From Lentisphaera profundi (GTDB lineage: Bacteria > Verrucomicrobiota > Lentisphaeria > Lentisphaerales > Lentisphaeraceae): DNA of 64,000 bases. The position numbers and the translations under genes were made by a program. The DNA lies in the NCBI RefSeq assembly GCF_028728065.1, contig NZ_CP117812.1:186001-250000 (forward strand). The letters run 5' to 3'. Positions 18,629 to 24,701 of this stretch are shown here, piece after piece (positions within the stretch are counted from its first letter, which is position 1; the number at the start of each line of letters is the position of its first letter). Under the pieces are notes generated by a model. That model saw only the letters and a list, made by a program, of their open reading frames with translations, did no database searches and had not been told where the DNA came from.

Positions 18629-20887
18629 ATGCCCATTTCTGCCTACATAGTGCACTGCTTTTCCCGTTACCATCAGGGGAACTGCTGTATTTATCTGATT
18701 GGACGTCTCGAAAATGGCGAAACATTTGGCTATATCAACAATAGTTTCGAGCCTTTTTTCCATATCCGTGAGAGCGATCAAGGCAGTGCTCAAAAGTATG
18801 CTCGTGAATTAGGCTTGCGGTTTAAAGCGAGTCCGCGAAAATGCATGGATGACGAAGCCACGCAGGTAGTGACTCATGCTAATAAAACCTTGCTCGATAA
18901 ATTGGCGCGTTCACTCAAAACAAACAAAATTCGTACTTATGAAGCCGATTTAAAAGTTGAGACCCAGTACCTCATAGAGCTTGGTGTAGAGAGTGTCTGT
19001 CAGCTTTCAGGAAAATGGACGAAAGGGCGCGGGGTTGATCGTATTTATTCTAAAACTACGCTTCTGCCAACTCAAATTAAGCAGCAGGATTTAAAACTCA
19101 GGACAGTTATTATCGAGACTTTTTTTGATGATGAGGTACTGACATCATTCTCGATAATAGATCTTGAAGAACAAAAGACTTTAGTTAAAAAACAAAGCGA
19201 TGACGAAATCACCTTACTCCTTCATTTAAAACAATCATTAAAAGATATTGATCCGGATGTGATTTGCGCTTGGTCGGTCCAAGAGCAAGTTTTTCTGCCA
19301 CTACAGAAACGCTTTCATTGGCATGGTCTAGCTTTCGATTTAGGCCGGAGTCGCGAAGATTATTGGTTTATTGAGCGTAAGTATCGAGGCCGTGACTTAG
19401 CGGTACTTCAGGGACGTCAATTACTCGATATTGAACAACTCATGAGTCACACCTGGGAACGCTACGACGAATCGACTCCCGAGTGTATTATCAAAGAAGT
19501 TTTTGATACTGATTTAGCAGAGAAGAATGCTGAAAATACGGATGCACGAGCACTTGAACTTACACGCTTAGTTGAGCATAAAAACCTCGTCGCACTCAGT
19601 TTGCGTCGGAGCTTACTTACCGGACTGCAGCTAGAACGCTGTTGGGGTAGTATTGCGAGCTTTGAATTTCTTTACTTACTTGAACTCCATAAGAAAGACT
19701 TTGTGGCCCCAACTCTTGGGGTGGATCAGGAATTGCGAGACTCAAATCCAGGGGGATTAGTAATGTCGCCTCATGCAGGGATTCACAAAAACATTTTTGT
19801 CTTCGATTTCAAGAGCCTTTATCCATCTATTATCCGGAGTTTTAATATTGATCCTCTTGCCTACTCCAAAGTTGTGGGATCGGACGATGCTAGCGCTATT
19901 GTCACACTACCCAACAAAGTGAGTTTTCATCGTGATAAGGGTATTTTACCAAAGACCCTCGAAAGTTTTTTTGCTAGCCGTGAAGCCGCAAAAAATGATA
20001 AGGATGAACTAGCGTCTTTTGTCTGTAAAATTTTGATGAATTCTTTCTTTGGTGTTCTTGGAACACCGGGCTGCCGCTTTGCTCAGGGAGCGGTGGTTTC
20101 ATCGGTATCTCAAACGAGTCATTACCTCTTACGTTGGATGAAAGCGGTTTTGGAAAAGCGTCATTATAAAGTGCTTTATGGCGATACGGATTCACTCTTT
20201 GTTGATCTCAAGATTAAGGATGATTTAAGTCATGCTGAGGCACATGAAATGGGTAATAAGCTGCATCAAGAGCTCAACCTTGCTTTGCGAGAACATTTAA
20301 AAGAGGACTTTGGCCTCGAATCCTGCCTCGACTTAGAATTTGAAAAGTTTTATCCCGCTTTTTTTCAGCCTTCCATGCGCGGAGATGATGCTAAGGGACG
20401 AGCCAAAAGTTATGCCGCTTTAAAGTCCACTAGTTCAGGAACTGAACTCGAAATTGTGGGCTTAGAAGCAGTACGTCGCGACTGGACTGAGGTGGCTCGT
20501 GAACTGCAGCGTGACTTACTGAAAAAAATGTTCAATCAAGTTCCTGGGCAAGAACTGGAAACCCATGTCCAAGAATTGATTAGTTCAGTAAAATCGGGTG
20601 CCTTAGATAAGCAACTCATCTACCGAAAATCTCTAACAAAATCCCTGGATTCATATACCAGTACCACTCCTCCACACGTTAAAGCTGCCCGCCAGCTTAG
20701 CGTAGTCCCACGGGTCATTTTTTATTACATGACGATTGCTGGTCCTGAAGCTAAACAAATCCTCTCGAGTCCGCTTGATTATCAGCACTATATTGATAAA
20801 CAAATTCAGCCGATCGTGAAAAGCTTAGCACAACACTATGATTTTTCTTGGCAAGTGGCGGTACTCAATCAGCAGGAATTATTCTGA
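18629..20887 (+). CDS. polB: DNA polymerase II (family B) with degenerate 3'-5' exonuclease site
   Basis: A 752-residue family-B polymerase that aligns end to end with E. coli Pol II (783 residues). The polymerase site is intact: motif A DFKSLYPSII (393-402), motif B KILMNSFFG (467-475) and motif C YGDTDS (517-522). The exonuclease site is not. Exo I, normally D-I-E, reads I-I-E (VIIETF, 160-165). Exo II, normally W-N-V-x-x-F-D, reads WSVQEQV (215-221). In Exo III the Y-x-x-x-D pair is replaced (around 303-310; Arg at the Asp position in an ungapped alignment). It should therefore copy DNA without proofreading, useful for lesion bypass. It is alone, with no LexA-box that I can recognise upstream. 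The ATG at 18629 is the first in frame and the protein starts as Pol II does. Confidence 0.9.
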   Translation: MPISAYIVHCFSRYHQGNCCIYLIGRLENGETFGYINNSFEPFFHIRESDQGSAQKYARELGLRFKASPRKCMDDEATQVVTHANKTLLDKLARSLKTNKIRTYEADLKVETQYLIELGVESVCQLSGKWTKGRGVDRIYSKTTLLPTQIKQQDLKLRTVIIETFFDDEVLTSFSIIDLEEQKTLVKKQSDDEITLLLHLKQSLKDIDPDVICAWSVQEQVFLPLQKRFHWHGLAFDLGRSREDYWFIERKYRGRDLAVLQGRQLLDIEQLMSHTWERYDESTPECIIKEVFDTDLAEKNAENTDARALELTRLVEHKNLVALSLRRSLLTGLQLERCWGSIASFEFLYLLELHKKDFVAPTLGVDQELRDSNPGGLVMSPHAGIHKNIFVFDFKSLYPSIIRSFNIDPLAYSKVVGSDDASAIVTLPNKVSFHRDKGILPKTLESFFASREAAKNDKDELASFVCKILMNSFFGVLGTPGCRFAQGAVVSSVSQTSHYLLRWMKAVLEKRHYKVLYGDTDSLFVDLKIKDDLSHAEAHEMGNKLHQELNLALREHLKEDFGLESCLDLEFEKFYPAFFQPSMRGDDAKGRAKSYAALKSTSSGTELEIVGLEAVRRDWTEVARELQRDLLKKMFNQVPGQELETHVQELISSVKSGALDKQLIYRKSLTKSLDSYTSTTPPHVKAARQLSVVPRVIFYYMTIAGPEAKQILSSPLDYQHYIDKQIQPIVKSLAQHYDFSWQVAVLNQQELF

Positions 20888-20944: not shown

Positions 20945-20987
20945 TGTGTATATTTAGTGAAATATTTAATACATGAGGACTTTAATA

Positions 20988-21314
20988 ATGGAAATCACCA
21001 CAAGAGAAGCAAGAGCACATTTCTCTACATATCTCGATAATGCAGAGCAAGGCGAAAGCATAACTATTGCACGTAGAGGTCATGCAAAAGTTGCTTTAGT
21101 AAAAGAAGAAGAGTTAGAGAAATTAAAGAATTACCAAGCAACATTGAAAGCAAAACTTTTTGATCTCTTTATGACTAAGAGTCCTAATGAAATAAATGAG
21201 ATGCATGATGTCTTATGTGTGTTGATGGATGCAGACGAAATTACTAACCCAGATGTGGTAGCATCCATTGAAGATGCTGAAAACGGTAATACTGAAGCTT
21301 GGGTGATGCCTTAG
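20988..21314 (+). CDS. Antitoxin, Phd/YefM family
   Basis: A 108-residue protein starting at the ATG 20988 behind GAGGAC; an in-frame ATG at 20973 has no ribosome site. The N-terminal half is a Phd/YefM DNA-binding fold (MEITTREARAHFSTYLDNAE, then ITIARRGHAKVALV). The C-terminal part, rich in Asp and Glu, should bind and mask the toxin. It is longer than E. coli YefM (83 residues). The toxin gene starts one base after its stop, the standard layout. Confidence 0.9.
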   Translation: MEITTREARAHFSTYLDNAEQGESITIARRGHAKVALVKEEELEKLKNYQATLKAKLFDLFMTKSPNEINEMHDVLCVLMDADEITNPDVVASIEDAENGNTEAWVMP

Positions 21315-21315
21315 T

Positions 21316-21579
21316 ATGGAAGTTAAGTGGACTAAAAAAGCTATCAAAGATGCCCAGTATTTACACTCCAAGGATGTAGAGAGTTATAAGAAATTGAAAG
21401 AGTTGATTGCTGAAATTGAAAAAAATCCTTTTACTGGAATAGGCAAACCCGAACCTTTGAAGCATAAGCTCAAAGGCTGGTGGAGTAGACGAATTAATCA
21501 CAAGGATAGATTAGTTTATAGAGTGAGTGGAAAAACACCACAGTTATTAGAAATTGCTTCATGTAGAGGACATTATTAA
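21316..21579 (+). CDS. Toxin, Txe/YoeB family mRNA interferase
   Basis: An 87-residue RelE-fold protein. The sequence VKWTKKAIKDAQYL, GKPEPLKHKLKGWWSRRIN, RLVYRV and the terminal CRGHY follow YoeB closely, with the catalytic Glu (in KPEPLK), Arg (in SRRIN) and terminal His-Tyr retained. YoeB cleaves mRNA on the ribosome at the A site. It is coupled to the antitoxin gene. I see no sign of decay. Confidence 0.9.
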   Translation: MEVKWTKKAIKDAQYLHSKDVESYKKLKELIAEIEKNPFTGIGKPEPLKHKLKGWWSRRINHKDRLVYRVSGKTPQLLEIASCRGHY

Positions 21580-24014: not shown

Positions 24015-24353
24015 CTACTGTGCTACCGCAAGTGGAAGTTTTTCGATTTCTTCAAGCTGTGATTTTTCTATATAATTAACTTCAAAGTTATTTTGTAGAT
24101 TCACCCAAAAAGGAAAAGATTGGCTAAAGTAATGAGAGAGCTTAACTCCAATAGCAATAGTGATTTTGCGATCCCCGTTAATAATCCCACTGATACCCGA
24201 ACGGGGGATGTTTAGGTCTTGAGCCAATTTATAAGCGGATATGTTCATGTCCTCTAAAAATTCCTTCACATGCTCACCGGGGTGAGCCATTAGGGGATAG
24301 CCGTTATCCTTCAGCCAATCGCACATATCTTTGTTTGTTAAATTCGTTTTCAT
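24015..24353 (-). CDS. Antitoxin, HigA/VapI family (XRE helix-turn-helix)
   Basis: A 112-residue protein. After a short leader, AHPGEHVKEFLEDMNISAYKLAQDLNIPRSGISGIINGDRKIT forms the HigA-type helix-turn-helix (quoted in part: start AHPGEHVKEF, recognition helix PRSGISGIING). A second half with SHYFSQSFPFWVNLQNNFEV is typical for HigA. It is downstream of its toxin, the reversed order usual for HigBA. It should neutralise the toxin and repress the operon at 24730-24756. Confidence 0.88.
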   Translation of the reverse strand: MKTNLTNKDMCDWLKDNGYPLMAHPGEHVKEFLEDMNISAYKLAQDLNIPRSGISGIINGDRKITIAIGVKLSHYFSQSFPFWVNLQNNFEVNYIEKSQLEEIEKLPLAVAQ

Positions 24354-24422
24354 TTTCTTGTCCTTTTTTAATTTTCATACATTTTAAAGCAAAGAGCAGA
24401 GTGGTGTTTTAGCCTCCATTCA

Positions 24423-24701
24423 TCAATGGTAGTCTGTTATCTCAACTCTCACGGGGCCTTTTTCCCAAGCCCAACAAATTCGCCATTGATTATTGATTCG
24501 CACGGAGTAATCACCTTGGCGATCGCCCTTCAAGATTTCCCAACGATTGCCCGGAGGGTTCATCATATCTTCAGGACAAGTAGCTGCATCAAGTCTCTGA
24601 ATAAGTCTCAGCGCTTTGGCTTGGATTTGTTGAGGAAGCTTGCGACTCATTTGACCTTGAGCAACTTTGGCGGTCTCCTTGTCTTTAAACTGCATCTTCA
24701 T
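24423..24701 (-). CDS. Toxin, HigB/RelE-like mRNA interferase
   Basis: A 92-residue RelE-fold protein: KLPQQIQAKALRLIQRLDAA, PGNRWEILKGDRQGDYSVRIN, WRICWAWEKGPVRVEITDYH. These are the HigB motifs, with the C-terminal D-Y-H. It should cleave translated mRNA on the ribosome. It is the first gene of the pair, 69 nt ahead of the antitoxin. Confidence 0.88.
   Translation of the reverse strand: MKMQFKDKETAKVAQGQMSRKLPQQIQAKALRLIQRLDAATCPEDMMNPPGNRWEILKGDRQGDYSVRINNQWRICWAWEKGPVRVEITDYH

Follow-up and report, generated by a model that had tools for sequence, protein, structure and literature searches.

A possible division of DNA polymerase II between two complementary proteins in Lentisphaeraceae

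Family B DNA polymerases are the standard textbook example of a single chain that both polymerises and proofreads. In a survey of >3000 complete bacterial genomes, both the exonuclease and the polymerase sites were conserved in group G1 (DNA polymerase II, Pol II), members of which are described with a clamp-binding motif, and an inactivated exonuclease was assigned to G2 (PMC12926913). Proofreading in trans has been reported for yeast Pol delta (PMC4351087). The literature that we searched (supplements and subscription papers excluded) yielded no description of an exonuclease-dead or polymerase-dead Pol II. Here we describe a Pol II-like gene (A1) from a window of Lentisphaera profundi DNA (the whole stretch analysed, 64,000 nucleotides, positions 186,001 to 250,000 of contig NZ_CP117812.1), together with a second Pol II-like gene (A2) encoded elsewhere in the same genome, the active-site motifs of which are in the reciprocal state.

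Active sites of the Pol II-like gene in the window

The A1 protein matched the NCBIfam model for DNA polymerase II (NF004421) over residues 5-752 (E 1.7e-158), with a score of 529 bits that falls under the equivalog cut-off of 570, and its nearest solved structures were those of E. coli Pol II (3k57/1q8i, E about 1e-84), as anticipated by the initial annotation, which had aligned the protein with Pol II along its length. Only polymerase-domain models (PF00136 and PF03175) were recognised by Pfam, without an exonuclease domain, and the A1 gene was the sole PF00136 match in the source genome (5.46 Mb, two contigs). Phylogenetically, A1 lies inside the Pol II tree, alongside intact Pol II of the Lentisphaeria; it retains the polymerase carboxylates of Pol II motifs A and C (D393, D519 and D521) and ends in a Pol II-like clamp-type motif that matches at the level of the consensus only (Table 1), and it lacks the conserved 3'-5' exonuclease site of PolB G1. 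On tree position and profile match, A1 is thus a bacterial Pol II of PolB group G1, and because three of the four exonuclease carboxylates and Tyr331 are missing, we file it as an exonuclease-dead variant of that group by descent. Lentisphaera marina IMCC 11369 (L081) encodes a relative with 81% identity, and the sole conserved neighbour in the immediate surroundings, common to both species, is a ThuA-like gene. Two toxin–antitoxin loci lie close by, namely a Phd/YefM antitoxin and YoeB-like toxin pair immediately downstream of the A1 gene (20973-21579) and, <4 kb away, an HTH (HigA-like) and HigB-like toxin pair on the minus strand (24015-24701). The genome also encodes two Y-family (IMS) polymerases (G000:C2:1854504 and G000:C1:511075).

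Table 1. Positions of A1, its motifs and the partner protein A2 (window coordinates unless a contig is given; residue remarks refer to A1 numbering, except catalytic Asp229, Tyr500 and the E158 equivalent, which refer to E. coli Pol II).
Feature	Sequence	Coordinates	Strand	Remarks
A1, predicted exo-dead, polymerase-competent DNA polymerase II-like protein		18629..20887	+	ATG start, 752 aa
Degenerate ExoI	V-I-I-E-T-F-F	19106..19126	+	I161 in place of catalytic Asp; E163 (E158 equivalent) kept
Degenerate ExoII	CAWSVQEQVFLPL	19265..19303	+	V221 in place of catalytic Asp229
ExoIII remnant	NTDARAL	19535..19555	+	YxxxD motif gone; preceding segment shortened
Motif A, intact	FDFKSLYPSIIR	19802..19837	+	D393 and SLYPS kept
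Motif B	KILMNSFFGVLG	20027..20062	+	Lys/Asn (K467/N471) intact; Tyr500 equivalent is Phe
Motif C, intact	YGDTDS	20177..20194	+	D519-T-D521
Putative beta-clamp-binding motif, C-terminal, Qxx[LM]F type	QQELF	20870..20884	+	consensus assignment
A2, predicted exo+/pol- Pol II-like protein		G000:C2:2415751-2418042		outside the window; 764-aa frame

Relative to E. coli Pol II, D156 is replaced by Ile161, D229 by Val221, Y331 by Asn and D335 by Arg (or by Ala in another alignment), so that three of the four exonuclease carboxylates, plus the ExoIII Tyr, are gone and the E158 equivalent (Glu163) alone remains. These are the losses that had been read from the single sequence at the outset (D-I-E to I-I-E in ExoI, Asp to Val in ExoII, and disappearance of both the Tyr and the Asp of ExoIII), and in the survey of homologues the residues at these positions are lost in all five Lentisphaeraceae orthologues. 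A profile built from 118 exonuclease-intact Pol II proteins placed ExoI and ExoII of A1 in the same register and found the ExoIII segment missing or unalignable. The objection that the initial annotation had raised against itself, that a shifted alignment might be hiding the catalytic acids, was ruled out with this profile and a column-by-column check, in which the acids were not recovered; given the losses in all five orthologues and the agreement of the profile, a shifted alignment is therefore no explanation. Divergence was concentrated in the same domain: compared with the intact Pol II of a relative from the same class (G016), A1 was 27% identical across the exonuclease region versus 49% across the palm and fingers (Fisher p 4e-6), a contrast absent from pairs of intact Pol II. 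Together, these motif states make a predicted loss of proofreading with retention of the polymerase well supported.

The polymerase motifs had been described as perfect, which stands for motifs A and C and for the Lys and Asn of motif B; motif B itself is not quite perfect, because A1 and all five orthologues have Phe in place of its Tyr (E. coli Y500, NAF-Y-G). This position is Tyr in 115 of the 118 readable exonuclease-intact Pol II (changed in 3/118) and is changed in 9 of the 11 exonuclease-dead ones (Phe in five, from Lentisphaeraceae; Ala in four, from Chitinispirillia), a trend that is suggestive only, because the sequences are akin and do not represent independent events. By position, we take Y500 to be the counterpart of Y567 in RB69 polymerase. 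The latter residue, which is altered in base-selectivity mutants, contacts the primer-template in the minor groove (PMC3799440), and the catalytic parameters of the Y567A enzyme have been reported as unaffected (PMC3792054). The motif B change suggests that A1 may handle the nascent base pair in an altered way. An error-prone or lesion-bypass role specialised for mutagenesis, as first proposed for A1, is plausible, and the Tyr to Phe change may point the same way, although suggestively only; exonuclease loss alone does not imply an error-prone enzyme, because the exonuclease-dead archaeal family B polymerase Dpo2 copies undamaged DNA accurately and works as an extender (PMC8764526).

An exonuclease-intact, polymerase-dead counterpart

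A family-wide protein search returned a weak second match in the source genome (G000:C2:2415823-2417046), which lies within the 764-aa frame of A2. A profile of A2 and its orthologues gave a full-length match to E. coli Pol II (E 2e-112), and in the four A2 proteins scanned with Pfam the exonuclease domain PF03104 alone scored above the cut-off. The ExoI, ExoII and ExoIII residues of A2 are complete in all six Lentisphaeraceae genomes; on the polymerase side, Arg or Glu occupies the Asp position of motif A, and none of the signatures SLYPS, NxxYG and DTD survives. By its motifs, then, the same genome appears to hold an intact-exonuclease, dead-polymerase partner for A1, and the two proteins mirror one another position by position (Table 2). 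Both also end in a clamp-type consensus, Q[LM]xLF in 6/6 A2 proteins and NQQxLF in 5/5 A1 proteins, with N747, Q748, Q749, L751 and F752 of A1 invariant among its five orthologues. AlphaFold2 models, built from five-sequence alignments, had pLDDT values of 43.5 (A1) and 40.3 (A2), too low to be informative.

Table 2. Residues at catalytic positions (E. coli Pol II numbering) in five A1 and six A2 proteins.
Position	A1	A2
D156	IV---	DDDDDD
D229	VVVCC	DDDDDD
Y331	NNHNN	YYYYYY
D335	RRRRR	DDDDDD
D419	DDDDD	RRREEE
D545	DDDDD	NNNSSD
D547	DDDDD	TTTHHE

The reciprocity extends to sequence constraint, the palm being better conserved than the exonuclease domain in A1 and the reverse holding in A2, a contrast that pairs of intact Pol II do not show. 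Between genomes G002 and G003, for example, A1 was 66% identical in the exonuclease domain versus 84% in the palm (p 2.7e-5), and A2 was 88% identical in the exonuclease domain versus 60% in the palm (p 1.5e-11). In every domain of both proteins pN was far below pS (dN/dS ratios were mostly not computable because synonymous sites were saturated), and therefore neither gene looks like a pseudogene; on this substitution pattern, both are maintained genes under purifying selection.

In L. profundi, about 2.2 Mb separates A1 from A2; the genes share no operon, and an SOS-like box common to their upstream regions was sought by eye, with nothing convincing found. The apparent start codon of A2 differs between the genera Lentisphaera (TTG) and g3 (GTG). 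The trxB gene adjoins A2 in Lentisphaera and is separated from it by one small ORF in g3, which is a sister genus; A2 has therefore been inherited with its locus.

Ancestry and distribution

In the full-length tree, A1 grouped with the Pol II of the Lentisphaeria (98/93), adjoining the exonuclease-dead protein of G007 (97/89) with the intact proteins of G006, G016 and G021 nearby, and A2 grouped with the Pol II of Bacteroidota and Calditrichota (100/98). A single clade of A1 and A2 was rejected on thumb-only data (p-AU 0.001), in a tree where the long branches of A2 call for caution. Two different genes, from separate Pol II lineages, therefore reached complementary losses. A recent duplication of one Pol II followed by subfunctionalisation had been considered as an origin of the pair and is ruled out by the same test. 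The exonuclease-dead Pol II of G007 (L058) is sister to A1 in the full tree and falls outside A1 in the thumb tree.

Both genes occur together in five of the six Lentisphaeraceae genomes; in the sixth (G001, of genus g2, a metagenome-assembled genome (MAG) that is 92% complete), A2 was present alone and a polymerase-competent Pol II was not found. Across the class (197 genomes, several of the surveyed genomes being MAGs), other Pol II genes were seen in G006, G016 and G021 (intact) and in G007 (exonuclease-dead), the last from a different Lentisphaeria family and 92% complete, in which an A2-type partner was not found. Exonuclease-dead Pol II also appeared, on a separate branch, in five MAGs of Chitinispirillia (Fibrobacterota; L092, L108, L139, L142 and L225). 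An exonuclease-intact, polymerase-dead partner was sought in Chitinispirillia and none was detected, and exonuclease-dead Pol II can therefore exist alone. In four of these MAGs (L108, L139, L142 and L225) the motif B change gives NSFAGVLG, and their exonuclease loss was apparently independent. Sampling of 387 genomes from the phylum, 395 from Bacteroidota, 167 from Fibrobacterota and 40 from Calditrichota revealed no exonuclease-intact, polymerase-dead protein outside Lentisphaeraceae, the matches read as loci having kept their polymerase motifs, bar one incomplete piece that could not be judged, with a few weak matches left unread. Matches on plasmids carried the annotation polB or none. One Pol II from another class of the phylum (L164, in G424) has ExoI changed from DIE to DIA and an in-frame TAG, and is possibly decaying.

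A proposed shared clamp, its rivals and known systems

Pol II is known to act at stalled or damaged forks, and the sliding clamp is a dimer with two binding pockets. The reading that we lean towards, while giving it somewhat short of an even chance, is that Pol II may have been divided in Lentisphaeraceae into a clamp-tethered polymerase (A1) and a separate clamp-tethered exonuclease (A2). In such a division, A1 would be held on the clamp and synthesise DNA without intrinsic proofreading, with primer extension probably taking place where forks are stalled or damaged, and A2 would dock on the second pocket of the same clamp and trim mismatched 3' ends in trans. A clamp-type motif on both proteins, taken with the two pockets of the clamp, is what favours a shared clamp; from the motifs, we infer activity at each remaining site, clamp binding by both proteins and joint action of the two. 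Against such a division speak the loose pairing (A2 alone in G001, and in G007 an exonuclease-dead Pol II for which no partner was found), the partner-less exonuclease-dead Pol II of Chitinispirillia, and the distance between the two genes in L. profundi, with neither an operon nor a recognisable upstream box in common. The full picture of a two-protein Pol II, in which family B proteins of different ancestry have become convergent complementary halves (a polymerase that does not proofread, and an exonuclease derived from a dead polymerase) that cooperate on one sliding clamp, is one that we hold a little more tentatively. With A2 in the genome, a division of activities over two proteins is no less good an interpretation than mutagenesis.

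The main and close rival, which we also regard as a serious possibility at a little below even chances, is that A1 works alone as an exonuclease-minus translesion or mismatch-extension polymerase, in the manner of Pol zeta or PolB2/Dpo2, and that A2 has independent roles (it could, for example, proofread for Pol III or trim 3' ends in repair). The recurrence of exonuclease-dead Pol II with no detected partner in Chitinispirillia and G007 speaks for a stand-alone enzyme, as do the motif B Tyr changes described above (among kin, not independent cases) and the precedent of Dpo2, a proofreading-free polymerase that is a proven extender (PMC8764526). However, a stand-alone A1 leaves unexplained why a Pol II of another lineage kept exactly the activity that A1 lost and shed exactly the one that A1 retained, and why A2, with its clamp motif, is conserved in all six Lentisphaeraceae genomes.

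Less probable by a wide measure is that A2 serves as a general clamp-bound editor, acting in trans for Pol III, DinB and Pol II alike, with the exonuclease loss of Pol II following from this; its clamp motif and its retention in G001, where no polymerase-competent Pol II was found, are consistent with such a role. Neutral decay of both genes towards pseudogenes would account for one dead catalytic domain in each, yet it is very improbable given full-length open frames in five (A1) and six (A2) genomes, the excess of pS over pN in all domains and the invariance of the remaining active-site motifs. Least credible of all is an A1 exonuclease still active through substituted acids, since the E158 equivalent, although conserved, is the sole conserved acid at any catalytic position in the five orthologues, the ExoIII segment is missing, and the profile and MAFFT alignments concur.

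If the shared-clamp reading is true, proofreading in trans would become testable in a bacterium by two simple gene removals, and the pair would illustrate a way in which a polymerase can hand over its editing domain to another protein. For genomes annotated with 'Pol II', neither proofreading nor polymerising can be taken for granted.

Among described systems, E. coli Pol II (PolB G1) resembles A1 in family, domain order (N-terminal, exonuclease, palm-fingers, thumb), polymerase motifs and C-terminal clamp-type motif, but A1 is without three of the four exonuclease carboxylates and the ExoIII Tyr and has Phe in motif B, and A2 is in the opposite state. PolB2/G2 polymerases (Sulfolobus Dpo2 and bacterial homologues) are likewise family B enzymes with an inactivated exonuclease domain and function in bypass or extension (PMC7544198, PMC8764526), a role that is putative for A1; their motif C is rearranged and contains one Asp, and their partner proteins are other ones, whereas A1 keeps both motif C aspartates (YGDTDS) and sits within the Pol II clade, in a tree that held no PolB2 rows. 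Eukaryotic Pol zeta and Pol alpha are also exonuclease-inactive family B enzymes (PMC7544198), but these polymerases and Pol delta are eukaryotic and have other subunits, and the trans proofreader of yeast is reportedly a complete polymerase and not a polymerase-dead one. In E. coli Pol III, alpha and epsilon (DnaQ) place polymerase and proofreader in separate proteins (PMC12926913), although that polymerase belongs to family C and its proofreader is not itself a degenerate member of the polymerase's family. The N- and C-terminal halves of Pol epsilon offer a further likeness, as two family B modules, one of them inactive, that have been retained together in evolution (PMC7544198); there, however, inactivation has struck one half as a whole module, which is fused to its partner, whereas A1 and A2 are separate proteins, each predicted to keep one activity.
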